Of a stretch of 50,469 bases of DNA, positions 1 to 44,396 are shown in pieces (position 1 is the first letter of the stretch; each line of letters starts with the position of its first letter). The position numbers were made by a program, and so were the translations under genes. Source of the DNA: a virus; IMG/VR virus record IMGVR_UViG_3300035670_006770, positions 1-50,469 of that record; one strand, written 5' to 3'. The notes beneath the pieces were generated by a model, which did not search any database, was not told where the DNA came from, and was given only the letters and a program-made list of their open reading frames with translations.

Positions 1-3000
1 TTAGCGCAGGTACTGATACCAGCATAGGTATTAGCCAGGGTAATAGTTCATCAAGTTATCCCGGACAAGAATCTACTTCATATGCTTATGTTCTTGAAAA
101 AGGACAAAAATTTAATAATAATTCAGCGGCTGCATATTCAAGTTCTTTAACAACTGGCGATGTATTTATGTGTGCCGTTGATTTAGATAATAATAAGCTT
201 TTCTTCGGTAAAAATGGAACTTGGTTAGCTAGTAGTAATCCTATAACAGGAGCAAATCCAGCGTTCACGCTTACTGCCGGAACATATAGAGCTGTTGCTA
301 GACCCTATAGTACTAACTCAGCAACTTTTAATTTTGGTGCCAGTACTTTTGCATATACTCCACCAACTGGATTTACTGGGCTACGAAGTGTTCCAACCTC
401 CCTCCTCACCCTCCAAGAGCGCGGTGCCTACAACACCATAGGCTTCCAAGACGAAAGCGAATATCAACATGTGATCACCCGGCCCTCCGGGGCCAACGTC
501 GCTCAGGGTACGTTCTCGCCTTTCAGCCCGAATGGGTGGTCGGTTTATTGGGCAACTGGCGGGATCATCAACTACGACACGACGACAGTTGGCACGGACT
601 TCAATCCAGGCTCGTCCAACTTCACCATGGAGATGTGGCTAATCCCACTTTCGACAGCAGCGACGCTAGTCAATTGGGGGCACAGCGACGGCAGCGGTTC
701 CGCCGGGATCATGCTCAACTTGAGCGGCAATTCATTGTCATTCACCGTCAACGCTTCAGACGGAGCGCACCCTGGAAATACCAGCGTCTCGATTAGCTAC
801 ACCAACTGGACCCATATTGCGCTTGTGCGTAACGGCGTTGCGCTGACGCTCTACGTCAACGGCGTCCCATCTGCTACATCATCCATTGGTGCTGCTGCCA
901 CGGTCAACACTGGATCGTGGTACGAGATTGGGCAACTTCGATTCGGAGTCTCACCGACGTTCAAAGGCTACTTGTCGAATTTCCGCATGAACTTCAATGC
1001 GGTCTATACAGTCGACTTCAGTAACGCACTTCCCACAGGACCGCTGACTTCTTCAGCATCTACGCGCCTGTTGATACTTCAAAGCAACCAGCCAACCAAA
1101 GACGCCTCTTCGTATAACAAGAGCCCGTATCAATACAGCAATGGTTGGCAGCTTATGCCGACCTCTCCATTCAAACCCGTAGCGTATGACCCTGCTGTGC
1201 ATGGCGGGTCGGGGTTCTTTGATGGGACGACGGATTGGTTAAGCGTTGCTAGTAGCGTGGCGTTTTCCCCAGGGGCGGGCAGCTTTACCGTCGAGTTCTG
1301 GTGTTACCCCACAAATACATCGGCTGGTTCCAGAGGTGTTGTGTCCAACGGGTACAGCGCGAATAGTTGGCATGTCAGCCAGCAGGGTACCAACCTCGTC
1401 TTTTATATTGGCACAAGCGCCGTAACGGCAACAGGAGCTCTTGATGCCAACACTTGGCAGCATTTTGCCTGTGTTAGAAACGGCTCGGCGGTAACCATTT
1501 TTAAGAACGGGGTCTCGGTTGCGACAGGGACGATTTCAACCAGTTCATCGACCGTCAACGTCATCACGATTGGTACGAGCGCCCACGCAACGACAGAAAC
1601 TTTCTTTGGCTATATTGGGCCGGTAAGGGTCGTAAATGGAATGGCGGTCTACACAGCCAACTTCACCCCACCCTCCGGCCCACTTCCCCTCATCAACAAC
1701 ACCTCCCTCCTGCTGAACTTCACCAACGGCGGGGTCATCGACAGCACTGGCAAAAACGTCATCGAGACCGTTGGCAACGCTGGTGTGGTTACAACAACCA
1801 TTAAGAAGTATGGATCTGGATCCATGTACTTTGATGGGACCGGGGACTACTTGGCAGGGCCAAGCAGTAATGCACTCAGCTTTGGCACTGATGCGTTCAC
1901 TATTGAAGGATGGGTTTACGCCTTATCAACTCCATCCGATGCGGGATTATTTACCAATGGTGGAGCGGCTACAGGCTCGTTAGGCTTCTACTTTCTTACA
2001 GGCTACCTGAGGTTTGATATTTATAACGGCAGCGGTTTTGCCTCGGGTACGCTTCTGCCTTTGAACCAGTGGGTTCATGTGGCTTGTGTTAGATCTGGGA
2101 ATACCGTAACCCTGTATCAAAATGGGGTGAGCGTAGGAAGCGCTACTGTCACTAACAGCAATACGAGTTCGCTTTGTTATGTTGGCACAAAGGGATGGGA
2201 CTTAACAAAAGTCTTTAACGGTTACATCGATGACCTTCGTATCACCAAGGGCTACGCCAGATACGTAACCGGCACTGGGGCCAACGCGAACCAAATGGTC
2301 TTTGCAGGCACCAACACCCTTGCCCTTCCAACCAAAGCCCACCCAGATCGAGGAACCGCAAGCACCTTAACCACTGACATGGCTGCGCCAAGTAGCGTTG
2401 AAGCACTAGTGGTTGCTGGTGGTGCAAGCGGCGGCAGGGATAATGGATCCTCGGGCCTTGGCGGGGGCGGCGGCGCTGGTGGCCTTCGGGAGTTAGTGGG
2501 TGCCAACGCCATCTCGGTCTCTGCCGGGACAAACTATGCAATCACGATTGGTGCAGGAGGCGCATCGGTTAGCGCCTCAATTGGAAGCGCCGGGAACTCC
2601 GGTTCAGGTTCTACGTTTGCATCGATAACGACTGTTACCGGCGGTGGCGGCGCGTCCTTTAATACCGCTAATGCCGGAAATGGCGGTTCTGGCGGCGGTG
2701 GCGATGGTACGCGTGCAGCAGGAAAAGGCATTTACCCAGGCTCCACATATGTTGATGCCGTTAGACAAGGGTATGACGGTGGGTCCGCTAATTGGACCGG
2801 CGGTGCGACCTCTTCAGCTGGCGGTGGTGGTGGAGCAGGTGGCGCTGGAGTCAATGGTTCCACGAACACTGGTGGTAATGGCGGCATCGGCGCTCAGTCC
2901 TCGATCACAGGCGTTCCTACCTACTACGGAGGCGGCGGCGGTGGAAGTTCCTATTCAACTCGAGGCCAAGGCGGGTCTGGAGGCGGAGGCGCAGGTGGTG

Positions 3001-3242
3001 TAAATAGCACGACCACCGCAGTAAGTGGCGATCCAAACACCGGAGGTGGTGGCGGTGGCGGTGGTAACTATGCAAGCGGTGCATCCGGAGCAGGTGGCTC
3101 AGGTATCGTCATCCTCGCTTACCCAACCACGTTCAAGCCACTTAAAGCCAGCCTAGGCTTGGTATACACCATAGACACAGTAACACGCCCTGGGTACCGC
3201 GTTTACAGATTCACCAGTGGTACTGGTAGTATAAGTTGGTAA
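1..3242 (+). CDS. Tail fibre/adhesin with SPRY, LamG repeats and glycine-rich tip (5' truncated)
   Basis: The reading frame is open from base 3, so the gene starts before the window; the first ATG at 168 is internal. In order it shows a SPRY-like domain (bases 3-370: GQKFNN, DVFMCAVDLDNNKLFFGKNG, ATFNFG), three concanavalin/LamG-like domains (about 520-1030, 1195-1680, 1800-2270; each has a FDGT-D/FTxEgWvY start and a GYIxxxRvxxG end), a glycine-rich domain (2400-3110) and a C-terminal cap ending GSISW. Such glycine-rich proteins are known as receptor-binding tail tips in tailed phages; a host-recognition role here is inferred. From about 385 to 3140 the DNA is clearly GC-richer than its surroundings, as if recently exchanged. 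The C-terminus and two internal blocks match the larger adhesin at 4243. Confidence 0.85.
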   Translation, partial: SAGTDTSIGISQGNSSSSYPGQESTSYAYVLEKGQKFNNNSAAAYSSSLTTGDVFMCAVDLDNNKLFFGKNGTWLASSNPITGANPAFTLTAGTYRAVARPYSTNSATFNFGASTFAYTPPTGFTGLRSVPTSLLTLQERGAYNTIGFQDESEYQHVITRPSGANVAQGTFSPFSPNGWSVYWATGGIINYDTTTVGTDFNPGSSNFTMEMWLIPLSTAATLVNWGHSDGSGSAGIMLNLSGNSLSFTVNASDGAHPGNTSVSISYTNWTHIALVRNGVALTLYVNGVPSATSSIGAAATVNTGSWYEIGQLRFGVSPTFKGYLSNFRMNFNAVYTVDFSNALPTGPLTSSASTRLLILQSNQPTKDASSYNKSPYQYSNGWQLMPTSPFKPVAYDPAVHGGSGFFDGTTDWLSVASSVAFSPGAGSFTVEFWCYPTNTSAGSRGVVSNGYSANSWHVSQQGTNLVFYIGTSAVTATGALDANTWQHFACVRNGSAVTIFKNGVSVATGTISTSSSTVNVITIGTSAHATTETFFGYIGPVRVVNGMAVYTANFTPPSGPLPLINNTSLLLNFTNGGVIDSTGKNVIETVGNAGVVTTTIKKYGSGSMYFDGTGDYLAGPSSNALSFGTDAFTIEGWVYALSTPSDAGLFTNGGAATGSLGFYFLTGYLRFDIYNGSGFASGTLLPLNQWVHVACVRSGNTVTLYQNGVSVGSATVTNSNTSSLCYVGTKGWDLTKVFNGYIDDLRITKGYARYVTGTGANANQMVFAGTNTLALPTKAHPDRGTASTLTTDMAAPSSVEALVVAGGASGGRDNGSSGLGGGGGAGGLRELVGANAISVSAGTNYAITIGAGGASVSASIGSAGNSGSGSTFASITTVTGGGGASFNTANAGNGGSGGGGDGTRAAGKGIYPGSTYVDAVRQGYDGGSANWTGGATSSAGGGGGAGGAGVNGSTNTGGNGGIGAQSSITGVPTYYGGGGGGSSYSTRGQGGSGGGGAGGVNSTTTAVSGDPNTGGGGGGGGNYASGASGAGGSGIVILAYPTTFKPLKASLGLVYTIDTVTRPGYRVYRFTSGTGSISW
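3146..3187 (+). repeat. 42-bp direct repeat, copy 1 (tail-fibre C-terminal cap)
   Basis: The 42 bases here are identical to 8421-8462. They encode the start of the C-terminal cap (ASLGLVYTIDTVTR) of both large adhesins. Identity at wobble positions in two otherwise diverged genes suggests recent gene conversion or use as a recombination point for swapping tips. Confidence 0.9.
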
Positions 3243-3263
3243 TTAATTTAAAAAGGAACACAA

Positions 3264-3713
3264 ATGATTTATGCACGAGTAATTAATGGCCAAATATACG
3301 ACCAGGCCACCATACAAGATCTATTTCCCAACACTAGTTTTCCACATACGGGACCCTCACCGGAATTTTTAGCCGGTGAAAATTTAGTGCCTATTAGTGA
3401 GCGCAAGCAGTATGATCCACAAACACAGGTCTTAGAACGTGTGCCTGCTTATATTGAAGATGGAGTTGTATATGTAGTGCGGCCGCGTGCTAAGACTAGT
3501 GAGGAGTTAGCTAGCGAACAAGCTGCACTAATGGCACAAAATGAACAGCAAGCTAAACAACTGCTAACTAACACAGATTGGACACAGTTAGCTGATGTAA
3601 CACTAGCTAATAAGCAGGAGTTTGCCAACTATCGTGCACAACTTCGCCAAATAGCTAGAAACCCACAAGCGGTGGTAACCTGGCCACAAGAACCAAATAA
3701 CGTTTGGCAATAA
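3264..3713 (+). CDS. Putative tail fibre assembly/chaperone protein
   Basis: 149 residues. The C-terminal half (LLTNTDWTQLADVTLANKQ, FANYRAQLRQIARNPQ, VTWPQEP) has the layout of phage tail assembly chaperone domains, in which a TDWTQL-PDVPL-N motif precedes an R-x-LR helix. It lies 21 bases after the first adhesin behind an AAAGGA ribosome-binding site, the usual place for a fibre chaperone. The N-terminal half (MIYARVINGQIYDQ) is not recognised. An assembly role is inferred from family resemblance and position. Confidence 0.6.
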   Translation: MIYARVINGQIYDQATIQDLFPNTSFPHTGPSPEFLAGENLVPISERKQYDPQTQVLERVPAYIEDGVVYVVRPRAKTSEELASEQAALMAQNEQQAKQLLTNTDWTQLADVTLANKQEFANYRAQLRQIARNPQAVVTWPQEPNNVWQ

Positions 3714-3730
3714 TTTAGGGATTAATAGCC

Positions 3731-4246
3731 ATGGCTAATGTAATCAATGCACAAAATGGTATCGCTACTACTGCTGACAGTAGTAGCGATCTTAATATTC
3801 AAGCAGGTGGTACTACCTTTGTAGAAATTGCTAGCGGTGGCTTAAACCTAAAAACAGCTGGTACTAATGCTCTACAAGTAGACACTAGTCAGCAGGTAAC
3901 ACTACCAAAACGTCTTACACTGCCTGCACAAAAGGTTAAGGTTAATCAATTAGGCTCTATAAGTGGTGCTCAGGCTATTGACCTAAGCACACATACTATA
4001 TACACAGCTACTATTACAGCTGCTACTACTTTTAGCTTTACCAATGCACCTAGCAGTGGTGAGTCGCAGGTAGTTTATCTTAGACTAACTAATGCTGGTA
4101 CGGGTATAACCTGGCCAGCTAATACTAAGTACGCTGGTGGCACTCCACCAACACTAACTGCTAGCGGCATAGATGTACTAGGTGTAATGTATGATTTAAT
4201 AACCACTACCTATATGGTATTTGTAATAGGTCTAGATGTAAAATGA
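3731..4246 (+). CDS. Hypothetical tail-associated structural protein
   Basis: 171 residues, rich in Thr, Ala, Gly and Ser, with no signal peptide or membrane segment. The N-terminus (MANVINAQNGIATTADSSSDLNIQ) resembles short beta-rich repeats at the start of phage tail-spike and structural proteins (label-like TTFVEIASGGLNL, NALQVDTSQQVTLP). It overlaps the next adhesin gene by the ATGA tetranucleotide, which implies translational coupling and a shared role in tail assembly. CTAG occurs six times in these 516 bases, as in the native phage DNA and unlike the GC-rich part of the first adhesin. Confidence 0.55.
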   Translation: MANVINAQNGIATTADSSSDLNIQAGGTTFVEIASGGLNLKTAGTNALQVDTSQQVTLPKRLTLPAQKVKVNQLGSISGAQAIDLSTHTIYTATITAATTFSFTNAPSSGESQVVYLRLTNAGTGITWPANTKYAGGTPPTLTASGIDVLGVMYDLITTTYMVFVIGLDVK

Positions 4247-7200
4247 ATGAGCTACTAATAGCAACTCAAAAAGCTAGTGGTATAACAGAAGAACTTGACC
4301 CAAACTACAATCTTGTAAGCCTACACCTACGCGGCGATGTAAATACTGGGCGTGACTATAACGCCTTTTCCGATGCTAGTAGTAATAATTTTAGACTAAC
4401 TAACAATGGTGAGGTGCGGGGAAGTAGCTTTAGTCCATACGGTACTAGTTGGAGTGCTTATTTTGACGGCAGCGGAGATTATTTAGCAAACACTACAACT
4501 GCATCTACAGGATTTAATCTTTCTACAGGTGCGTTTACTATTGAAGCATGGGTTTATTTGTCATCTGTAGCATCTTATCAATATGTTTTAAATTTTGCAA
4601 ATGCTGCTGGTGCTGCTTCAGGGCTTGTGTTTGGTATTAATACTTCTGGTCAACCGTATATTGGTAATGGTTCAGTTGTTGGTAAATCTGGCTCTACTGC
4701 TTTAACTGTTAATACTTGGACACATATTGCTGTTGTTAGTGACGGTACAAATATTCAATTTTATACTAATGGTCAGGCAAATGGATCTGCTCAAGCATTT
4801 AATCCAAATACAGCTCAATATGTATACGTTGGACGAGATGGTACTGGCGGAAATCAGTTAACAGGGTATATATCAAATATACGCATTGTTAAAGGACAAG
4901 CCTTATTTACAGGTGCATTTAATCCTTCAACACTACCAGTAACTGCTTCTACTGTAGGACATACTGGCACAGGAGCAGTATCTACTATTACCGGTACAGT
5001 TGCCTTTTTAGCTTGTCATGCAAATAGGTTTATTGACGGTGGTAGCAGCTCCTTGATGTTGTCTGCTTTTGACGGAGCTCGCATTTCCAGCTTTAGTCCA
5101 TTTCTTGATAGTGACACTACTACAGGATCAGCGTATTTTGATGGAACTTCAGACTATCTTGACGTAACAAGTGCCCTATTTAACCCTGCTGGTGCTTTTA
5201 CACTTGAGTTTTGGTTTTATCCAACGTTAAGTACGTCTCCTGAACAAGGTATAATTAGCTCCTGGCCGAGTGGACTTAGTCCCGCACAAGGAATCTTACT
5301 TTTCAAAAATAGCGCTGGCGTGTTAGAAGTTGCATTAGGAAATGCATCTACAGGTTATACCGCTATTGGTACGGGTACATGGACAAATTACATGAATCAG
5401 TGGAACCACCTTGCATTGGTTAGAAATGCAAGCAATAGTTGTGCTGTATTTGTTAATGGAAATCGACTAGCCTCTCCGGTTACAAAGTCAGGAGCGCCTG
5501 GTCAAACTACGTTAACTATTGGTCGTTATTTTCCTAATAATACCGGCTATAATTTTCAAGGTAATATTTCAAACTTACACTTTGTCAGCGGCTCTTCGCT
5601 TTACGATCCTAGCCTAACAAATATAACAGTACCTACGATACCAATTACTAAAAATGCAAGCACAGCCCTACTTACCCTACAAGAACGCGGTGCCTATAAT
5701 ACTGTGGGGTTCCAGGACGAAAGCGAGTACCAGCACATAATTACTCGTACTAATAATGTTGCACAGGGTACATTTAGTCCATTTAGTCAGGCTGGATGGG
5801 CGGTAAATTTTGGCGGTGGTTCATCAAATATCAATCTTGCAAGCAGCGCAGACTTTGCACTAGGCGGTGCATTTTCATTTGAATGTTGGGTATATCAAAC
5901 TAGCATACCTAACTTTGTTGACTTGCTAGATGTACGAACCAGCAACGAAGTTGGTTCGCTTGGTATATCCGCAACCGGATTTCCGCGTTGGCAAAACGGT
6001 CCGAGCACAGGATCGCTAGTTACTGGGTCCACAGCACTAACGCTCAATCAGTGGAATTATCTTTTATTTGTTGCAGATGCCAGCGGCTGCTCAATCTACT
6101 TGAACGGTCAGCGGATCGCTAACACAGCTCAAGTGGCCACTTGGCCTACCTCGGCAAGACCGTGTTTTATTGGCGGCAGTTTTGGCAATGCATCTGGTGG
6201 CTCTCTTAGTGGGTTCATTGCGGATGCAAGATTAATAAAGGGATCGACTCCGTACAGCAGCACAGCCACTAGCGTAACCGTACCAACAGCTTTGCTTCCG
6301 TTCGTCACAAATACCGTATTGCAGTGCTGCAGAACAAATCGTTTTGCAAATACGGTAAACAGTGCGTCTATGACAGCCAACGGTACAACCTCCATAACAG
6401 CCTTTAGTCCATTCAAACCCCCAGTTTATGAAGCACAAACACATGGAGGTAGCGCATATTTTGATGGAGCAGGAGACTATCTTAGCAGTGCATATAGTAT
6501 AGCTAACACAGCATTTACTGGAGATTTTTGCCTAGAATGTTTTGTTTATTTTAATGCGTTGCCAAGCACAAAATCTTTTGGCATGAAAATTGCCAGTGCT
6601 GGCAACGGGTCTAATAGTGGTTGGTATTTTCAAGCTACTACAGCCAATGTATTTAATATATCTACTTATGGAAGTGGACCAAGTTTAACTGGTACTACAG
6701 TTTTAACCGCAAATCAGTGGTATCACGTTGCACTAGTTCGCAGCGGTGCAAATTTCTCGATCTTTGTAAACGGAACCAGAGATGCTACTACTAGCAGCGG
6801 GTCAGCAGCATTTGCAAATACTGCTGCAACTGCGCTTTTTCTTGGTACTTATAGCGGAGATGCAGGAAATAGTAATCACCAATTTAGTGGTTATATTGCC
6901 AGTTGCAGAATTGTAAATGGCTTTTCTGTCTACGACGCAACACAACCCTCAATACTTATTCCTAGTAGCCCACTTCCACTCATCAACAATACCAGCCTAC
7001 TGCTTAATTTTACGAATGGTGGAGTTATTGACAGCACAGGTAAGAATGTTATTGAAAGTATGGGTAACAGTGGAGTTGTAACAACTGCGCTCAAGAAGTA
7101 CGGAACTGGTAGTATGTTCTTTGATGCAACAGCAGATCAGCAACGTGTTACGCCACAAGCTCAACCAGTGCTTGGCAACGGCGACTGGACAGTAGAGTTT

Positions 7201-8517
7201 TGGGCCTATGCCAACGCAACACCTGCTGGTGGTTACTGCGGTCGTTTTGTGTTTTCCAATGCTGGATTCTTTATTAGAAATGCTAGCGGCACTGTTATCG
7301 ATTGTGGTTGGAGTGGGTCGGGTGCAGCTATTACTACTGCATCAGGAGTCGCTGCTGCCAACACGTGGCAACACATTGCTCTAGCCAAATCTGGCAATAC
7401 TGTTAACCTTTATGTAAACGGTGTGTGTCGCGGTACAACTGCCTCCTGGACTTGGAACGAGTACACTTCTGAATATTTTATTGTTGGATCAACCTATACA
7501 GGCAGCGAATATTTCAATGGCTATATAGACGATTTTCGTGTTACTAGAGGCTTAGCTCGTTATACTGGTTCAACTGTTGGCACAACCTACTTTACAGCTC
7601 CAACCAAAGCCCTACCAAATCGTGCAGTAGCCAGTACAGCAACTACTAGCTTAACTGCACCAACTAGTGTTGAAGCACTAATAGTTGGTGGTGGCGGAGG
7701 TGCAGGTGGACAACAAGGTGGTGGTGGCGGTGCAGGTGGTTTCCGTGAATTTATGGGTGGTAATGCAATTGCAGTATCAGCTAACAATAGTTATAGAATT
7801 ACTGTTGGTAGTAGCGGTAGTGGGGGTGCTTCTGGAGCAGGTGCAACAAGTGGGACTTCTGGAGGAAGCTCTATTTTTTCTAACGTTACCTCAGAAGGTG
7901 GCGGAGGTGGCGGAACTGTTAGTACAAGCGGATTAAATGGTGGATCTGGAGGCGGAGGTGGTCATAATTCTCCCGGTACATCTTTAGGAGGACTTGGAAA
8001 TAGAGTTGCTGGAACTACTACTGTAGTACCTACGCAAGGAAATAATGGTGGAGACAGTAATCCTAATGCAACAAATTATTACGCTGGTGGAGGTGGTGGT
8101 GCTGGTGGTGTTGGACAAAATGGAAGTCCTAATAACGGCAACGGTGGACTTGCTCAAACGTCATCAATAACAGGCACTAGTATATACTATGCTGGTGGAG
8201 GAGGTGCTGGTAGTCGTGGCGGTACTGCAGGTCTTGGGGGCGGAACAGCAACAACTGCTAATAAAGGTGGTGGTGGAGATGGTTCAGCTTCTGGTATTGG
8301 TCTATCTGCACTTACAAATACCGGAGGTGGTGGAGGTGGCGGTGCTTATGCCTATAACGGAGGTAACGGAGGTAGCGGCGTAGTTATTTTAGCCTATCCA
8401 ACTACAAACAAACCACTAACAGCCAGCCTAGGCTTGGTATACACCATAGACACAGTAACACGTCCAGGCTATCGCGTTTATAAATTCGTTGCCGGCACAG
8501 GCACAATATCTTGGTAA
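4243..8517 (+). CDS. Giant tail adhesin with five LamG-like domains and glycine-rich tip
   Basis: 1424 residues. Five LamG/concanavalin-like units are visible at about 4440-4930, 5115-5620, 5790-6280, 6450-6960 and 7100-7570, each with a YFDGxxDYL-like strand, an FTxExWvY strand, a QWxHxALVRxG strand and a GYIxxxRvxxG closing strand. A glycine-rich region (7670-8390) and the cap ending GTISW follow. The block LLTLQERGAYNT near 5664 and PLPLINNTSLLLNFTNGGVI near 6970 recur in the first adhesin. It starts within the stop codon of the previous gene. The family suggests a distal tail fibre that binds surface glycans. Its DNA stays AT-rich apart from a modestly richer part at 5900-6400. Confidence 0.85.
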   Translation: MNELLIATQKASGITEELDPNYNLVSLHLRGDVNTGRDYNAFSDASSNNFRLTNNGEVRGSSFSPYGTSWSAYFDGSGDYLANTTTASTGFNLSTGAFTIEAWVYLSSVASYQYVLNFANAAGAASGLVFGINTSGQPYIGNGSVVGKSGSTALTVNTWTHIAVVSDGTNIQFYTNGQANGSAQAFNPNTAQYVYVGRDGTGGNQLTGYISNIRIVKGQALFTGAFNPSTLPVTASTVGHTGTGAVSTITGTVAFLACHANRFIDGGSSSLMLSAFDGARISSFSPFLDSDTTTGSAYFDGTSDYLDVTSALFNPAGAFTLEFWFYPTLSTSPEQGIISSWPSGLSPAQGILLFKNSAGVLEVALGNASTGYTAIGTGTWTNYMNQWNHLALVRNASNSCAVFVNGNRLASPVTKSGAPGQTTLTIGRYFPNNTGYNFQGNISNLHFVSGSSLYDPSLTNITVPTIPITKNASTALLTLQERGAYNTVGFQDESEYQHIITRTNNVAQGTFSPFSQAGWAVNFGGGSSNINLASSADFALGGAFSFECWVYQTSIPNFVDLLDVRTSNEVGSLGISATGFPRWQNGPSTGSLVTGSTALTLNQWNYLLFVADASGCSIYLNGQRIANTAQVATWPTSARPCFIGGSFGNASGGSLSGFIADARLIKGSTPYSSTATSVTVPTALLPFVTNTVLQCCRTNRFANTVNSASMTANGTTSITAFSPFKPPVYEAQTHGGSAYFDGAGDYLSSAYSIANTAFTGDFCLECFVYFNALPSTKSFGMKIASAGNGSNSGWYFQATTANVFNISTYGSGPSLTGTTVLTANQWYHVALVRSGANFSIFVNGTRDATTSSGSAAFANTAATALFLGTYSGDAGNSNHQFSGYIASCRIVNGFSVYDATQPSILIPSSPLPLINNTSLLLNFTNGGVIDSTGKNVIESMGNSGVVTTALKKYGTGSMFFDATADQQRVTPQAQPVLGNGDWTVEFWAYANATPAGGYCGRFVFSNAGFFIRNASGTVIDCGWSGSGAAITTASGVAAANTWQHIALAKSGNTVNLYVNGVCRGTTASWTWNEYTSEYFIVGSTYTGSEYFNGYIDDFRVTRGLARYTGSTVGTTYFTAPTKALPNRAVASTATTSLTAPTSVEALIVGGGGGAGGQQGGGGGAGGFREFMGGNAIAVSANNSYRITVGSSGSGGASGAGATSGTSGGSSIFSNVTSEGGGGGGTVSTSGLNGGSGGGGGHNSPGTSLGGLGNRVAGTTTVVPTQGNNGGDSNPNATNYYAGGGGGAGGVGQNGSPNNGNGGLAQTSSITGTSIYYAGGGGAGSRGGTAGLGGGTATTANKGGGGDGSASGIGLSALTNTGGGGGGGAYAYNGGNGGSGVVILAYPTTNKPLTASLGLVYTIDTVTRPGYRVYKFVAGTGTISW
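8421..8462 (+). repeat. 42-bp direct repeat, copy 2 (tail-fibre C-terminal cap)
   Basis: Identical to 3146-3187. It sits at the same codon positions in the C-terminal cap of the second adhesin. Confidence 0.9.
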
Positions 8518-8524
8518 TAATCTT

Positions 8525-8863
8525 ATGGCACATTATGCATTTTTAGATGAAAATAACGTGGTAACTGAGGTTATCACTGGTAGAGATGAAGGCACACTAG
8601 GCATAGACTGGGAACAGTTCTATGCTCAGGAGCGTGGTCAACCCTGCGTACGTACTAGTTATAGTGCCAGCATACGTAAAAATTATGCTGGCATTGGTTA
8701 TACCTATAACGCAACATTAGACGCATTTATACCGCCACAACCCTATCCAAGCTGGCAGCTAGACACCAACACCTGCCAGTGGGTGCCGCCTGTAGCACAG
8801 CCACAAGACGGCAATCAATATTTTTGGAATGAACCACAGCAAAACTGGACTATGGTAACATGA
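8525..8863 (+). CDS. Small tail accessory protein (MAHYAFLD-type)
   Basis: 112 residues from the ATG at 8525. An in-frame extension to 8489 would overlap the adhesin and is not needed. The start MAHYAFLDENNVVTEVI and the later SIRKNYAGIGYTYN and PYPSW...CQWVPP motifs form a small protein I recognise as recurrent next to tail fibres in T4-like marine phages, where it is only known as a hypothetical structural or fibre-attached protein. It ends in an ATGA overlap with the next gene. Function beyond tail association is unknown. Confidence 0.65.
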   Translation: MAHYAFLDENNVVTEVITGRDEGTLGIDWEQFYAQERGQPCVRTSYSASIRKNYAGIGYTYNATLDAFIPPQPYPSWQLDTNTCQWVPPVAQPQDGNQYFWNEPQQNWTMVT

Positions 8864-9768
8864 GTTTATTAACAGACTACTTACGTACTGCACCTAGTCC
8901 AATTCCTACAGTTAGCTTTAACTATGTAGTTGTAGCTGGCGGTGGAGGTGGCGGTGCTCGTTATGGCGGTGGTGGAGGTGGTGGTGGCGTGCTATTTGGC
9001 TATAATCAACTTATACCTGTAGGCCAGGTGTTAAGTATAACTGTAGGTGTAGGAGGTGCTGCCGGTACTGCTAGCAGCACCAGTGTAGGTACTCGCGGCG
9101 TCAATGGCGGAAACAGTAGTATTAGCTATCCTGGCGGCATTAGTGTTACCGCACTAGGCGGTGGAGGTGGCGGTACTGGTATTGGCGGCATAGGAGTTGG
9201 AGCCAATGGTGGTAATGGCGGCGGCGGCAGTGGTAGTACCGTTGGTACTAGTAACAGGCTGGGTGGCCAAGGTACTGCAGGTCAAGGTAATGCAGGCGGA
9301 AATGGTGGTTATAATAGTAGCATAGGCTCGGGTTTTGGCGGTGGTGGTGGTGGATGGACTTGGCCAGGAACAAATGCTACTAATGATATATACGCTGGTG
9401 GTGGTCAAGGCGATGGCTGGTTATATACCGATTTTAATCAGTACTATGGCGGTGGCGGTGGCGGTGCTGGAGCTGCAAACTATAACAATTATGGCTTAGG
9501 TGGCTTAGGTGGTGGTGGTAGGGCTGGTAGTACTGGTACTGCTAGTATACCACTGCCAGAAAATGGCACAGATGGGCTAGGTGGCGGCGGCGGCGGCCAA
9601 TCCTCAACTAGTGCTAGTTATCCGGGCGGACGTGGTGGTAGTGGCACAGTAATTATTCGCACTACTGCAATACCTAGTCAAATTACCGGTAATCCGCAAC
9701 TGTTATTACAAAATGGCTTCAGGTACTATACATTTACTAGTACTAGTGGCGGTTCAATTGTGTGGTAA
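8860..9768 (+). CDS. Short glycine-rich tail tip protein
   Basis: 302 residues. After a short N-terminal stretch (MSLLTDYLRTAPSPIP) it is almost entirely glycine-rich: VVVAGGGGGGARYGG, then repeated GGGGGG blocks separated by Asn/Ser/Tyr loops. It ends in YYTFTSTSGGSIVW, the same kind of aromatic GSI-W cap as the two large adhesins, but it has no LamG domains. It may be a stand-alone receptor-binding tip or an adhesin that attaches to one of the larger fibres; this is inference. It is coupled to the upstream gene by an ATGA overlap. Confidence 0.7.
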   Translation: MSLLTDYLRTAPSPIPTVSFNYVVVAGGGGGGARYGGGGGGGGVLFGYNQLIPVGQVLSITVGVGGAAGTASSTSVGTRGVNGGNSSISYPGGISVTALGGGGGGTGIGGIGVGANGGNGGGGSGSTVGTSNRLGGQGTAGQGNAGGNGGYNSSIGSGFGGGGGGWTWPGTNATNDIYAGGGQGDGWLYTDFNQYYGGGGGGAGAANYNNYGLGGLGGGGRAGSTGTASIPLPENGTDGLGGGGGGQSSTSASYPGGRGGSGTVIIRTTAIPSQITGNPQLLLQNGFRYYTFTSTSGGSIVW

Positions 9769-36376: not shown

Positions 36377-37126
36377 TTAAGCAGCTTTGGCTTCTGCTTT
36401 AGCACGCTTGGCAGCACCGTCATAGTCTGCAACTTTGATACCACGACGGGTTAAAAGTGTCTTAAGACCACGCTCTGTTTTGTCAACAGCAGCTGCAATC
36501 TCTGCAACAGTCATACTATGAATCTTGCTACCTAGTGAAGTAACTGGATCTACATTCTCTTTAGCATAGCTGTTCTTTTGTGCAGGAATCTTAGCGATTT
36601 GACCTTTACGAGTAAGGCTAAGAGCTTTACCACGTACGCTAGCAACAGTTTTATTAAGTGCGCTAGCAATATCCTCAATAAACGCACCCTTCTCAGCCAT
36701 TGCAATAAACTTAGCTTCTTCAGCGTCAGTATATGTACGAGCAACTTCAACTTTTTCAGCAGGTTTAACACTGCCAGTAAGTTCAAGTGCTAAAAGTTTA
36801 CCTTGGATTTGCTTGGCAGTAAACTTGCCATCCATGAATTCTTCAGCGATTTGTTTATAGGTAAGTTCGCCTGTGTGGTTAACTACAAACTCAGCAAGCT
36901 CAGCACCTTCATCTTCAGTAAATGCACTAGTCTTTTCTTTGGCCATGCTAGCAACTTCTACTTCAAGTTGACGCAATTTGCTAGCTACGCTACGTGCGGT
37001 AAATTCAGCACCAAGTGCTTCTGCGGCATGCTCAACAGTAGCTGCACTAACAGGACGCTGGCTACCAACAAGTTTCATAAGTTGGTCAACAGTAGCGTCA
37101 GACCATTTTTTGGCTTTTTCAGTCAT
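36377..37126 (-). CDS. Protein with four SANT/Myb- or HTH-like repeats
   Basis: 249 residues. Four tandem helical units can be aligned by eye, each starting with a W/F/Y-S/T-x-D/E-E motif and ending near a K/R-x-L segment: WSDATVDQLMKLV, FTEDEGAELAEFV, YTDAEEAKFIAMA, and SMTVAEIAAAVDKTERGL. Each has an A-x-x-L turn as in Myb/SANT or recombinase HTH domains. The end is Lys/Ala-rich. It is probably an abundant DNA-binding protein (own terminator, GC-richer codons). The family is not recognised; the start overlaps the ligase subunit gene by 8 bases. Confidence 0.65.
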   Translation of the reverse strand: MTEKAKKWSDATVDQLMKLVGSQRPVSAATVEHAAEALGAEFTARSVASKLRQLEVEVASMAKEKTSAFTEDEGAELAEFVVNHTGELTYKQIAEEFMDGKFTAKQIQGKLLALELTGSVKPAEKVEVARTYTDAEEAKFIAMAEKGAFIEDIASALNKTVASVRGKALSLTRKGQIAKIPAQKNSYAKENVDPVTSLGSKIHSMTVAEIAAAVDKTERGLKTLLTRRGIKVADYDGAAKRAKAEAKAA

Positions 37127-37877
37127 TGATATGTTCTCTTAAAAAAGTATTTAAGTTTGTGATAATTTTTATGCCGAGTGTATCGGCTTTTTTACGTTTT
37201 GTACTACTTTTATCTTCTTCGTCAACTAAATAATCCGTAGTTTTTGTTACAGTTTCGCTGATACGAAATCCGTGTTCTGTTAGTTGCTTGTAGGCTTCGG
37301 CTTTGGTTTTATAAGAAGATAGTTTACCTGTAACGCATACTATAGGTCCGGCAGTATTTGCCACAGGTGTTTCACTGCGAAAAGAGAATGGTAAAAACTC
37401 TCTAATTTCTTTGAAATCCAGTTCTAGCCAGCCCAAGAGATTTTGAGTTACTTTATCTCCTAGTCCAGCCTGTTTACAAGTCTCTAGGTTAATTTCGTCT
37501 ATATGACTAACTACACTGCTAATCTTAGTACTAGCAGTATTACCTACTAGTGGGATACTAAAACTTGCTAGTACTTGATTTAGAGGAGCACTACGACTTT
37601 TTTCAATTTCTGCTAAGAGCTTTTCTGCTACTTTTATACTGCCTAGTAGGTCGCTGATTTCATCAAGCTCTAAGTAGTATAATTCAGTAATATCTGCTAG
37701 CCCTAGTTTTTCAATAGTCTTTGCGCCCATACCCTTGATGTTCATAGTTTTGCAAAAGTGTTCTACACGTTTGCTTAATTGAGCATCACAAGCCTGGTTG
37801 CGACAAAACAACTGATCGTTAACCAGTTCTAGTTTATAGTTGCAACATGGACAATGTGTGGGTATTTCAATCTTCAT
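37119..37877 (-). CDS. ligB: NAD+-dependent DNA ligase, C-terminal subunit (Zn finger, HhH, BRCT)
   Basis: 252 residues. It begins exactly where bacterial LigA continues after its OB fold: zinc finger CPCCNYKL...FCRNQACDAQ, then the helix-hairpin-helix region (NIKGMGAKTIEKLG, FSIPLVGNTAS), then a BRCT domain (CVTGKLSSYKTKAEAYKQL and DYLVDEEDKSSTKRKKA). It lacks the adenylation domain, which is encoded separately at 38720-39676. A split NAD+ ligase is known from phage T5. It has its own sigma70 promoter at 37902-37930. Confidence 0.9.
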   Translation of the reverse strand: MKIEIPTHCPCCNYKLELVNDQLFCRNQACDAQLSKRVEHFCKTMNIKGMGAKTIEKLGLADITELYYLELDEISDLLGSIKVAEKLLAEIEKSRSAPLNQVLASFSIPLVGNTASTKISSVVSHIDEINLETCKQAGLGDKVTQNLLGWLELDFKEIREFLPFSFRSETPVANTAGPIVCVTGKLSSYKTKAEAYKQLTEHGFRISETVTKTTDYLVDEEDKSSTKRKKADTLGIKIITNLNTFLREHIND

Positions 37878-37901
37878 GTGTATTAATTAACCTAAGATAT
37901 T

Positions 37902-37930
37902 ATTATACAGTATTAACCAGTGTATTACAA
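37902..37930 (-). promoter_or_regulatory. Sigma70-type promoter for the C-terminal ligase gene
   Basis: Minus strand: TTGTAA (37930-37925), 17 bases, TATAAT (37907-37902), 25 bases before the start codon at 37877. It lets the second ligase gene be expressed without read-through from the first. Confidence 0.75.
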
Positions 37931-37962
37931 GCTAAAATTTTTGTTGCCTTGGCAGCAGAAAT

Positions 37963-38646
37963 TTAGGCATTATAGCGTTTCCACCCTTTGTGCATATTCT
38001 TTCTTCCTTTTAAAAGCTCTGTTACTTTAGGCTGTAGTAAACCATGTTCTTTAGAAAAATTTGATATATGAACTACCTCATGAATCTCACCTGTAGGTGA
38101 AATTAATTTTGGATATTGAGTTCCTCTATAATACCGAATGGATTTAATATGTTTTAATTTGTCATATAACAACGGTTCTACTTCTTTTAACCAACCATGA
38201 CTTTCTAACGCTGCTATATGTCGGATAGTATAAATAGATACTCCAGTTATATTTTCAATATCTCTCTTATTAAGCGTGGGATTTTCTTGTACTAATAATC
38301 TAAGAACAGAAATATATTGCTCATTTGAGTATTTTGATGTACCTACTTTTTCCCCAAAAAGAACTGGATTGCCTGCTTCACTTAAAGTATTGAAACCATT
38401 GTTAACAGAATCAAAGATTTCAATAGCTTCTTTTTCAGCATCGTTAAGCTCTTTGTAAGAACATTCTAAAATAATCATTAGCGTTGGCATGCCAAAATTA
38501 TTATATCCGTTCTGGAGCTTAGGGGCTGCTGCTTGTCTACTAAAAGCACTTTTATGTTTTATAAATCTATCTTCTATATTAAGTGATTGACCTATATAAA
38601 CCTTATCTGTATTTTCGAACTTTAATAAATAAATCCCGCAAGTCAT
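37963..38646 (-). CDS. GIY-YIG homing endonuclease inserted between the ligase genes
   Basis: 227 residues. The catalytic start is MTCGIYLLKF with GIY at 4-6 and YIG at 17-19, followed by Arg27 and the EAIEIFDSVNNGFNTL block. The C-terminal third holds a NUMOD-like DNA-binding unit (LISPTGEIHEV and LLKGRKNMHKGWK). It is paralogous to 43707-44396. It is free-standing: no group I intron features were seen. It has its own promoter and lies between the two halves of the ligase. Few CTAG sites and high AT content suggest an origin outside this phage. Confidence 0.88.
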   Translation of the reverse strand: MTCGIYLLKFENTDKVYIGQSLNIEDRFIKHKSAFSRQAAAPKLQNGYNNFGMPTLMIILECSYKELNDAEKEAIEIFDSVNNGFNTLSEAGNPVLFGEKVGTSKYSNEQYISVLRLLVQENPTLNKRDIENITGVSIYTIRHIAALESHGWLKEVEPLLYDKLKHIKSIRYYRGTQYPKLISPTGEIHEVVHISNFSKEHGLLQPKVTELLKGRKNMHKGWKRYNA

Positions 38647-38679
38647 AAAATTATACCTTAAAATTTATACTATATATTT

Positions 38680-38708
38680 ATTATAGCATAATAGGTATAA
38701 TTTGTCCA
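38680..38708 (-). promoter_or_regulatory. Sigma70-type promoter for the GIY-YIG gene
   Basis: Minus strand: TGGACA (38708-38703), 17-base spacer, TATAAT (38685-38680), 34 bases upstream of the endonuclease ATG. Confidence 0.65.
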
Positions 38709-38719
38709 ACTAAAATTTT

Positions 38720-39676
38720 TTATGCATCTACTTTATGTAGTATACAGGGTATTACTTCCCCGCTTCTTACAACTGCCACTGTATCGCCAATCTGTAAGTC
38801 TAGTGCTTCTATAAACCCAGGATTGTTGAGTGTGGCTCGGCTTACTAGTGCATCGCCAATTTTAACAGGCTCTAGAATAGCTGTTGGTGTTACTTTGCCA
38901 GTTTTGCCTACATTCCATTCTACGCCTAGTAATTTAGTTTCTACATGCTGAGCACGTTCTTTGCGAGCATATGCACCGCGTGGATGTTTGCTAGTATAGC
39001 CCATTTGTTCAAACTGATGATTATTATTCAGCCTAACAACAATACCATCACTGGGATAAATCTTAGCAAGGTCTGGTTCTAGTACAGTGTTAAAGCCCAA
39101 TTGCTTAAGCACACGCATATCACCAGACCAAGTTGGATCTAGGTTTGGTGTTATCTGATAGGCAAAAAATTCGATTGCTCTGGTTTTGAACTCGTCTAGG
39201 TCTTTAAGATTTAAGCTGCCTGCTGCATAATTACGGCTATTTTCTACATGCAGTGGAGCCACAATCTCACCAGTAATTTGCACAGTTACATTACCAAGAT
39301 TAATTCTTAGTGGCACTAGACCACCATGCTCGTACATTTTATCTGTAATAACTTGACCCTCAACGCCATCACCGCGAGTAAGTGCCTGCACTAGTACACC
39401 ATCTACATATAACAAGCTAATAGCTGCACCGTCTAGTTTGATGCTGGTGGTAACGTCTAGACCTGCTAGCGGATCTTGTTTACCTTCATCTTCATAAAAC
39501 TTTTGTAGGCTATACATGCGGTGTACATGCTTGTCTTTTTTGCCGTGAGCAATAGCACCAACTTTATTATAACCGCAACCCTCTGCTAGTGTGTCGAACA
39601 CGTAATCTGGAATAGTGGGCGTACCGGCATAGTAGGCCTCACTTGCTTTGTCTAATAGTTTATGTAATTTATTCAT
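38720..39676 (-). CDS. ligA: NAD+-dependent DNA ligase, N-terminal subunit (adenylation and OB fold)
   Basis: 318 residues. A short NAD-binding Ia-like start (YYAGTPTIPDYVFDTL) is followed by the adenylated lysine motif SIKLDG (Lys80), ALTRGDG, TGEIVAPLHVENS, PSDGIVVRLN, and an OB fold (GKVTPTAILEPVKIG, SRATLNNP, GDTVAVVRSGEVIP). It stops after the OB fold; zinc finger, HhH and BRCT are in the gene at 37119. The two proteins must associate to seal nicks. The promoter -10 box is only 7 bases before the ATG, so the mRNA is probably leaderless. Confidence 0.92.
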   Translation of the reverse strand: MNKLHKLLDKASEAYYAGTPTIPDYVFDTLAEGCGYNKVGAIAHGKKDKHVHRMYSLQKFYEDEGKQDPLAGLDVTTSIKLDGAAISLLYVDGVLVQALTRGDGVEGQVITDKMYEHGGLVPLRINLGNVTVQITGEIVAPLHVENSRNYAAGSLNLKDLDEFKTRAIEFFAYQITPNLDPTWSGDMRVLKQLGFNTVLEPDLAKIYPSDGIVVRLNNNHQFEQMGYTSKHPRGAYARKERAQHVETKLLGVEWNVGKTGKVTPTAILEPVKIGDALVSRATLNNPGFIEALDLQIGDTVAVVRSGEVIPCILHKVDA

Positions 39677-39683
39677 AAATAAT

Positions 39684-39712
39684 ATTATAGCAGTTTAGGG
39701 TCTGTATTTCAA
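39684..39712 (-). promoter_or_regulatory. Sigma70-type promoter producing a leaderless ligase mRNA
   Basis: Minus strand: TTGAAA (39712-39707), 17 bases, TATAAT (39689-39684). Seven bases separate it from the ATG at 39676, the usual distance to the transcription start itself. It is a near-consensus promoter. Confidence 0.8.
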
Positions 39713-42684: not shown

Positions 42685-42834
42685 TTATGTGTACTGTGTT
42701 TCAAACCAACTTTTTTCTACACTACAAGCTGGACACAGGTAATCTTCTGGTAATTCTGCAAACGGTACAGTACGATCTGGATCGTTTTCATAAACATAAT
42801 CACAAACAGGGCATACGTGAATCTCATTACTCAT
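42685..42834 (-). CDS. Rubredoxin
   Basis: 49 residues, read directly on the minus strand. The two iron-binding pairs are CPVC (Cys8, Cys11) and CPAC (Cys34, Cys37), with the rubredoxin core CDYVYENDPD, PFAELPEDYLCP and a final KSWFE. It is the size of a free rubredoxin or of the C-terminal domain of rubrerythrin. It starts inside the stop codon of the rubrerythrin gene (TAATG), so translation is coupled. It most likely passes electrons to rubrerythrin for peroxide reduction. Its TAA directly touches the tRNA 5' end. Confidence 0.88.
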   Translation of the reverse strand: MSNEIHVCPVCDYVYENDPDRTVPFAELPEDYLCPACSVEKSWFETQYT

Positions 42835-43286
42835 TATGCCACCTTTGCTAATACTTGTTTATATTGATTGGCGTGCTTTTCTTCTACTTGTTTAAGTGCA
42901 GCAAACACTTTTTCAGCTTTAGCCAATCGTTGCTTAAATTCTTCAGCATGTTGGCTGCTTTCTAGGATTTGATTTCTAAACTCATTAAGCGCAATAGTAT
43001 CTTGTTCAGCTTTGGCAATAGCTGCAAACTGCGGATACATTTCTGTGTACTCGTAAGTTTCACCAGCAATAGCCATTTCCAGGCAAGTTACCGGATCTAG
43101 ATCGCCGTATATTAGTTTAAGATGGCCCCAAGCATGTAGTATTTCTTGATCTGCTGTATGTTCAAAATGTTTGGCGACATCTTCCATGCCTGCGTCACGA
43201 CATACTTTAGCAAAGTACCGGTACTTGATATGTGCCATGCTTTCACCTGCTAGTGCACTTTCCAAGTTTTTAAGTGTTACACTCAT
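42834..43286 (-). CDS. Rubrerythrin (diiron peroxidase) without rubredoxin domain
   Basis: 150 residues from the ATG at 43286 with an AAGGAT site; an extension to 43337 is only translated tRNA. Four-helix-bundle iron ligands are visible: Glu15 (LAGES), Glu48 and His51 (DQEILHAW), Glu76 and Glu79 (GETYEYTEMYPQF), and His113 with Glu109 nearby, one residue off the usual spacing. The family reduces hydrogen peroxide in the cytoplasm of anaerobic and microaerobic bacteria. The rubredoxin electron carrier is the next gene, with a one-base overlap. Confidence 0.88.
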   Translation of the reverse strand: MSVTLKNLESALAGESMAHIKYRYFAKVCRDAGMEDVAKHFEHTADQEILHAWGHLKLIYGDLDPVTCLEMAIAGETYEYTEMYPQFAAIAKAEQDTIALNEFRNQILESSQHAEEFKQRLAKAEKVFAALKQVEEKHANQYKQVLAKVA

Positions 43287-43307
43287 TATTATTATCCTTG
43301 TGTGATG

Positions 43308-43382
43308 TGGAGCGGGCGACAGGATTTGAACCTGCAACGAACAGCTTGGAAGGCTGACACTCTACCGTTGAGTTACGCCCGC
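43308..43382 (-). tRNA. tRNA-Gly (UCC)
   Basis: 75 bases including CCA. GCGGGCG acceptor stem, D arm with AACTCAACGGTAGAGTG, anticodon stem-loop CAGCC-TTCCAAG-CTG with UCC, and T arm GGTTCAAATCC. It reads GGA and GGG, useful for the glycine-rich tail proteins and the phage's A-ending codons. Confidence 0.93.
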
Positions 43383-43706: not shown

Positions 43707-44396
43707 TTATGCTAATTTCCATTTATTAGCAGATTTTCGTTTTCCAGTTAATAGCTGATGCAAAGAGCTATTATTAACGTTGTGGTCTCTACAAAATTTT
43801 TGTAAATTTTCTATCGTATATACTTCTCCCTGTGGAGATATAACTCTAGGATATTTAATGCCCTGTCTTTTGGCATCCCATAAACCTAACCTAGATATAT
43901 TTAGCATTTTATCGTATTCTTCTGGATATATCTCTCTTATCCAGGTGTGATTACGTCCTTTATTAAATGATTTTATAATTGCTATAGGAATATTTAATTC
44001 CTTAGATATATCTGTTAAGAGTTTATTGGGATTATTAACTAAGTAATGTAGTAGCTTTATAATATCTTCATTTGAAACTAACGATCTAAAATGGTCTTGG
44101 CCGCGCCCATTATTTACTACTTTGTCCGTTATATTTAATCCATTTTTATATGAATTATATTTTTTAATATAGAATATTTCTTTTTCTGTTAGTTCTGATA
44201 CTGTACATATCTCTATAATATCTAATAATGGATATGAATTTGTAATACTATAAGCTTCTAATAGCATATAATTGCTTTTGCCATGTTTTAATTCAGACTT
44301 ATGACAAACGTATCTTTGTTCAATATTAGAAGATTGGCCAATATAAGGCCAATCTTCTAGAGTATTAAAACGTAAACGATAAATTCCTATAGTCAT
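43707..44396 (-). CDS. GIY-YIG homing endonuclease next to the tmRNA gene
   Basis: 229 residues. GIY at 4-6 and YIG at 18-20 with Arg28, then the family block (EIFYIKKYNSYKNGLNIT) and a NUMOD-like C-terminal DNA-binding unit (VISPQGEVYTIENLQKF, LLTGKRKSANKWK). It is clearly paralogous to the endonuclease at 37963. It has its own promoter (44430-44458), is very AT-rich and almost lacks CTAG. It follows the tmRNA coding piece by about 100 bases, so its homing site may be in or near that gene. Confidence 0.88.
   Translation of the reverse strand: MTIGIYRLRFNTLEDWPYIGQSSNIEQRYVCHKSELKHGKSNYMLLEAYSITNSYPLLDIIEICTVSELTEKEIFYIKKYNSYKNGLNITDKVVNNGRGQDHFRSLVSNEDIIKLLHYLVNNPNKLLTDISKELNIPIAIIKSFNKGRNHTWIREIYPEEYDKMLNISRLGLWDAKRQGIKYPRVISPQGEVYTIENLQKFCRDHNVNNSSLHQLLTGKRKSANKWKLA

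Follow-up and report, generated by a model that had tools for sequence, protein, structure and literature searches.

A mobile GIY-YIG endonuclease gene at the end of an anciently split NAD+ DNA ligase gene in a T5-like environmental phage

An NAD+ DNA ligase encoded in two pieces with an endonuclease gene between them raises the question of which came first, the split or the endonuclease. We address it for a T5-like environmental phage represented by an IMG/VR virus fragment (IMGVR_UViG_3300035670_006770; "the window" hereafter denotes the whole stretch analyzed, 50,469 nt). On its minus strand, the gene for the N-terminal ligase half (ligN) is followed by a GIY-YIG homing endonuclease gene (HEG) and then by the gene for the C-terminal half (ligC):

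38720..39676, minus strand: ligN, NAD+ DNA ligase subunit A-like (domain Ia, adenylation, OB fold), 318 aa (open reading frame [ORF], Pfam, PHROG/structure homology)
37963..38646, minus strand: GIY-YIG homing endonuclease gene, 227 aa (ORF, Pfam)
37119..37877, minus strand: ligC, NAD+ DNA ligase subunit B-like (Zn finger, HhH, BRCT), 252 aa (ORF, Pfam)

A preliminary description of the locus had proposed that invasion by the endonuclease caused or stabilized the split. We conclude that the locus as a whole is very probably best explained by an old, single split, followed by late homing into the end of ligN with exchange of the ligN 3′ end.

Results

The ligase is split at a domain border

ligN matches DNA_ligase_aden (1e-27) and DNA_ligase_OB (2e-26, residues 246-316 of 318), has the ligase motifs KLDG, ITGE, and DGIV all intact, and terminates directly after the OB fold. 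ligC matches BRCT (4e-6), carries HhH, and has a four-cysteine Zn finger at residues 9-30, its start lying eight residues before the first of these cysteines. Since ligN stops after the OB fold and ligC opens at the Zn finger, the split falls at the border between these two domains; the Pfam domains and the position of the Zn finger thus bear out the earlier claim that it follows a domain border. Nearly the whole of each gene product aligns with the T5-like ligase subunits (PHROG 3359 and 3498). Judged from sequence, the split ligase is very likely functional, independently of the endonuclease; the two products would work as a two-subunit enzyme and are predicted to assemble as such in this phage. 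A split intein or fractured gene was considered and rejected: there is no intein at the gene ends, ligN ends after the OB fold, and ligC starts before the Zn finger.

The split is shared with relatives that have no endonuclease

Scans with each ligase half yielded about 150 viral loci, and 109 distinct ligN-ligC alleles were analyzed. Of these, 93 have the same split but no endonuclease, and their halves lie 69-99 bp apart (empty alleles). The others comprise 12 occupied alleles, two with long gaps but no nuclease, and two with T5-like spacers of ~200 bp. Because the loci were gathered by query similarity, some of them via the endonuclease itself, the 93:12 proportion of empty to occupied alleles is not a population frequency. 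The nearest empty allele, L003, is 97% and 98% identical to the window in the two ligase proteins.

The T5-like phages give the same picture. The two ligase genes lie ~200 bp apart in Klebsiella IME260 and Escherichia TrudiGerster, small ORFs without nuclease annotation lie between them in Vibrio D386 and Dax, and no T5-like genome examined has an endonuclease between the ligase halves. The order ligA-ligB-D5-helicase is identical in these phages. Among 31 ligases placed in a maximum-likelihood tree, the 15 that are split (a freshwater clade and the T5-like Demerecviridae) form one group (support 100/99), and the four one-piece ligases from phages and the 12 from bacteria fall outside it; the midpoint root serves for drawing only, so that one origin here refers to a single side of a branch. 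In each of the 80 bacterial loci recovered (80/80), the ligase is a one-piece gene. A two-chain T5-like ligase has been solved (PDB 9hu3/9i5i; chains of 339 and 248 residues); across the 235 residues that were compared, its chain B is 100% identical to Providencia phages PSTCR5 and PR1. The parallel with the two-gene ligase of T5, drawn in the preliminary description, therefore holds in homology, gene order, and common clade.

These comparisons indicate that the split is ancient, is shared with the T5 relatives, and predates the endonuclease at this locus. Since close relatives and the whole T5-like group are split without an endonuclease, invasion as the cause or stabilizer of the split is unsupported. 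The preliminary description had itself named a split long predating any endonuclease as speaking against its proposal, and comparison with split but endonuclease-free relatives finds just such alleles.

The large number of empty alleles also bears on an artefact, in which a frameshift, an assembly error, or an undetected intron joins the two halves. Nothing was found in favor of this explanation, which we regard as vanishingly improbable. Every reading frame of the empty spacers is closed by stops, and the spacer lengths fall into all three phases, which excludes the joining frameshift that had been raised as a way for the split to be illusory. In addition, ligC has its own promoter and start, an Rfam scan of the gap gave no group I intron and no other structured RNA match, and the arrangement is found in about a hundred distinct contigs.

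The insertion lies within the end of ligN

Alignment of the window with L003 places the element inside the last codons of ligN:

38720..38737, minus strand: replacement ligN 3′ end carried by the element, CATAAAGTAGATGCATAA versus CACAAGGTTGATGCCTAA in the nearest empty allele (allele alignment)
37963..37970, minus strand: leftover of the old ligN terminus, ATGCC-TAA, now forming the final codons and stop of the HEG (allele alignment)
37878..37962, minus strand: native ligN-ligC spacer, kept 3′ of the HEG (allele alignment)

At the left junction, the new ligN end differs from that of L003 by four changes, all synonymous and all in the last five codons before the stop; the ~45 bases ahead of them are identical to L003. 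At the right junction, L003 reads GATGCC-TAA-ATTTCTGCTGCC and the end of the HEG in the window reads AATGCC-TAA-ATTTCTGCTGCC. By this alignment, the old ligN stop is now the HEG stop, and the entire native spacer lies downstream with the ligC promoter.

Two other occupants have longer remnants. The endonuclease of L059 ends in ...GTAGATGCTTAA, which encodes Val-Asp-Ala-stop as in a ligN ending HKVDA (a 12-nt match), and that of L017 ends in ...AGTTGATGCATAA (a 13-nt match to the ligN end); both matches are longer than any in the 58 control GIY-YIG genes from other sites (maximum 8). The ligN proteins of L017 and L059 share the ending GMIIPEI(I/V)HK(I/V)DA.

The endonuclease is a late and mobile arrival

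The HEG product matches Pfam GIY-YIG (2e-5) above the curated cut-off, in agreement with the earlier report of a GIY-YIG gene in the ligase gap. The GIY/YIG residues, R27, and E71 are invariant across 11 relatives, the middle I/V of YIG being variable, and every lineage compared retains an intact nuclease with its catalytic residues. It is free-standing, with its own ORF, start, stop, and promoter and no Rfam intron match, and it is present or absent at the same site among close relatives. By every testable feature it is a free-standing GIY-YIG homing endonuclease, with cleavage predicted. No close relative was found in the databases (best 28%), and the phage search gave just three weak matches.

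Six of the ligase-site nucleases form one clade (98/90), which is faithful to the site down to ~43% identity. Those of L066, L072, L205, and L206 branch outside it, and the L017 nuclease is a distant GIY-YIG protein of 20% identity. A single origin of all ligase-site nucleases was considered and set aside: the nuclease tree needs five changes (4-5 in 200 bootstrap trees), yet its strongly supported branches alone force just one, so that the number of invasions is uncertain except for the distant L017.

The site-faithfulness of this clade could be taken to mean that the split was the work of an endonuclease in the T5-like common ancestor, since lost from most lineages, with the present occupants as its descendants or replacements. 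Splitting of genes by endonucleases is documented (mobE in Aeh1 nrdA and mobA in T4 gene 60; PMC2988022). We nevertheless consider this history improbable, given that the T5-like genomes examined are free of endonuclease at the site, that the occupants include at least one distant nuclease (L017) and are minority lineages beside clean empty alleles, and that the element sits within the 3′ end of ligN and leaves the complete spacer, including the ligC promoter, on its downstream side, as would be expected had the spacer come first. As far as allele comparison can tell, the HEG is a late, mobile arrival in an old split.

Exchange of the ligN 3′ end and co-conversion

The element and its flanks have moved between alleles as a block:

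37276..38966, minus strand: co-conversion block, 130/131 informative sites in common with L002/L001; left switch 38966-38981, right end not reached (allele comparison)

Over most of the 2 kb upstream, L002 and the endonuclease-free L004 are 97-100% identical; L002 then switches to the window sequence within ligN nt 696-711 and follows it through the HEG and ~600 nt of ligC. This patch spans at least 1.69 kb; its right end cannot be placed, because the window and L004 hardly differ past it. A second pair shows a shorter footprint: L153 and the empty L145 are 93-100% identical until ~40 nt before the ligN stop and 0.71 in the last 40 nt, and past the element they are 98-100% identical from the spacer on (next 240 nt), with one dip to 0.87-0.95 in ligC. 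The patches in L002 and L153 are the trace expected of double-strand-break repair with co-conversion, as in T4 elements (PMC2988022).

The ligN 3′ end itself has diverged in several occupied alleles. The drop over the last 20 codons of ligN in L079/L081, L162, L205, and L017 is equalled by 0-2 of 83 empty alleles, in which the mean drop is −0.03; the ligN end is therefore not generally fast-evolving. This tells against the view that the endonuclease is immobile baggage and the 3′-end differences reflect ordinary phage recombination or relaxed constraint at the ligN end. Empty alleles do recombine, two of the 83 showing a 3′-end drop of up to 0.23, and L001 and L002 differ from one another in an upstream patch. 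The largest departure of L002 from L004 near the ligase is nonetheless the HEG patch matching the window, and the nuclease keeps its catalytic residues throughout, so that we regard immobility as very improbable.

Promoters and a leader hairpin

Each of the three genes is preceded by a sigma70-like promoter, and the HEG has a structured leader:

39684..39712, minus strand: ligN sigma70-like promoter TTGAAA-17-TATAAT, score 11/12 (promoter scan)
38680..38708, minus strand: HEG sigma70-like promoter TGGACA-17-TATAAT, score 11/12 (promoter scan)
38648..38703, minus strand: leader hairpin, −15.6 kcal/mol, z −3.8, containing the −10 box and pairing the ribosome-binding site AAGG (folding)
37902..37930, minus strand: ligC sigma70-like promoter TTGTAA-17-TATAAT, score 10/12, kept in endonuclease-free relatives (promoter scan)

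The scan bears out the separate promoters reported earlier for the HEG and each ligase half: these are the best three of the 14 sigma70-like sites in the region, although the count alone is not significant (11.2 expected). All 93 endonuclease-free relatives also have the ligC promoter, with a score of ≥10/12 in 86 of them versus 23 of 465 shuffles. Derivation of the HEG promoter from that of ligC was also considered; the shared AAAATTTT...TTG is suggestive, but the pattern with exact spacing occurs once in the window, at ligC itself.

Hairpins with z scores of −3.8 to −7.3 occur in six of seven related leaders, the window included (−4.5 to −7.3 in L059, L105, L153, L069, and L066; −1.9 in L067), and the leader of the distant L017 nuclease has z −6.3. 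In the automatic leader alignment, the 3′ arm of the window hairpin did not align with the others. Since the −10 box of the HEG promoter lies within the hairpin, a transcript from that promoter would lack the hairpin 5′ arm. I-TevI, segB, and mobE are regulated by a ribosome-site-blocking hairpin that is absent from own-promoter transcripts (PMC2988022), and the HEG hairpin may likewise regulate translation.

Neighboring genes and related insertions

Beyond ligC come the genes for a D5-like regulator and a 99-aa protein, followed by those for a DnaB-like helicase, a primase, and a DNA polymerase, the last three labels resting on inspection by eye and synteny. This block is the replication block as in T5-like phages.

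36377..37126, minus strand: D5-like transcription regulator, the next gene, in T5-like order (homology and synteny)

Nucleases of the same family occur at further borders of the replication block, present in some relatives and absent in others. In L005 (4264-4956) and L010 (662-1354), the gene upstream of ligN has a GIY-YIG gene at its last codons and a changed 3′ end: the same layout at a second site. In L059 (3755-4475) and L074 (2734-3432), a GIY-YIG stop overlaps the next start (GCATGA) between the D5-like and 99-aa genes. Endonucleases also stand at the border of the 99-aa gene and the helicase in L063 (the same contig as L083; ~8603), L076 (~3316), and L072 (~7669), where the helicase start is AUA or AUC/AUU. 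The helicase starts with ATG, TTG, or GTG in 83 of 88 distinct relatives; L045, which looks endonuclease-free, also has AUA. These unusual starts may reflect recoding of a cut site or a brake on helicase translation.

The window itself has a second GIY-YIG gene (43707-44396, minus strand), which belongs to another branch than the ligase-site one and whose site is empty in the close relative L006. At the ligase site, the ligN frame of L206 continues into the endonuclease frame (1470-1530), giving ligN a new C-terminal tail, and in L056 a 742-b insert (4908-5651) separates ligN from ligC and holds small ORFs but no endonuclease. On inspection of the translations by eye, adjacent rubrerythrin-like and rubredoxin-like ORFs lie in the replication region of the window (42685-43337, minus strand), and very long, repetitive tail-fiber-like proteins with LamG-like repeats and glycine-rich ends occupy 3-9768 (plus strand).

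Discussion

The comparisons suggest the following history. The ligase would have split once, at the border of the OB fold and Zn finger, in the ancestor of the T5-like phages and the freshwater clade. Much later, free-standing GIY-YIG homing endonucleases would have begun to insert at the end of ligN. The nuclease is predicted to cut the ligN 3′ end and/or the adjacent spacer in a co-infecting endonuclease-free phage, and repair would then copy the endonuclease together with flanking donor DNA. The repaired ligN would take the donor 3′ end, leaving the protein whole and the cut site presumably no longer matched, hence immune; the old ligN end and stop would be displaced downstream to become the tail of the endonuclease ORF. 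With the ligN end replaced and the ligC promoter left intact, both ligase halves would survive. The leader hairpin probably blocks translation of read-through transcripts, so that the nuclease would be made only from own-promoter transcripts.

Several points weigh against this account. The ligN remnant in the window is only 8 nt, a length that two of the 58 control nucleases reach by chance; its capture is argued from homology unbroken through the stop into the spacer. The window shows no ligN 3′-end drop relative to its nearest empty allele, the exchange being seen in relatives; the window looks like the donor side. The older occupants L066 and L072 have no clear drop either, L205 and L072 lack a significant leader hairpin, and the account leans on predicted cleavage and on a presumed need for the ligase.

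By domains and common descent, ligN and ligC are a further T5-type split ligase. The two-subunit NAD+ ligase of the Demerecviridae (ligA/ligB; PDB 9hu3, 9i5i) has the same split border and gene order (PHROG 3359/3498) but differs in sequence (38-46% identity) and in its spacer, ~200 bp in Escherichia coli and Klebsiella phages compared with 69-99 bp here.

The element resembles T4 seg genes, I-TevI, segB, and mobE (PMC2988022) in being GIY-YIG, free-standing, and intergenic beside a replication gene, with co-conversion tracts, and in a promoter likewise placed so that its own transcripts lack the ribosome-site-blocking hairpin. It differs from them in having a sigma70-like rather than a T4 late promoter and in sitting in the last codons of its host gene, whose 3′ end is exchanged. 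In the part of the literature searched, we found no description of a 3′-end-exchanging layout in phages; parallels come from eukaryotes. Each integration of a yeast WHO element gives FBA1 a replacement 3′ end, and, as at the ligase site, several nucleases use one target (PMC7282813). WHO elements differ in their nuclease class (HO/intein-zinc finger), in far longer 3′ fragments, and in being eukaryotic; moreover, cleavage and allele resistance are proven there and predicted for the phage HEG. Tentatively, the phage locus could be a WHO-like, cleave-and-rescue layout, in which site-faithful GIY-YIG nucleases attack the ligN end while carrying a recoded, cut-resistant copy, element-free rivals lose their ligase unless converted, and distant nucleases reuse the target and the resistant ends; we lean somewhat against this stronger reading. 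Fungal mitochondrial mobile ORFs (in atp6, atp9, cox2, and nad3) bring a diverged carboxy-terminus while the native one stays downstream (PMC3630166). Their inserted end likewise differs mostly at synonymous sites, and one uses a GIY-YIG nuclease; they differ in being mitochondrial and in duplicated ends of ~50-300 bp, compared with a remnant of 8-13 nt here.

The nearest phage precedent for a nuclease possibly entering an already split gene may be seg43(25), which lies in the split gene 43 of Aeromonas phage 25 (PMC2988022). There too a replication gene is split, and the endonuclease is present in one phage only, 44RR lacking it. The order of events was left open for phage 25 gene 43, whereas the >90 empty split alleles found here settle it in the case of a single split replication gene, with the nuclease taking advantage of a split that was already there. 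Together, the empty, converted, and donor alleles of the ligase locus form a natural series for watching how an endonuclease spreads and how damage to its host gene is avoided.

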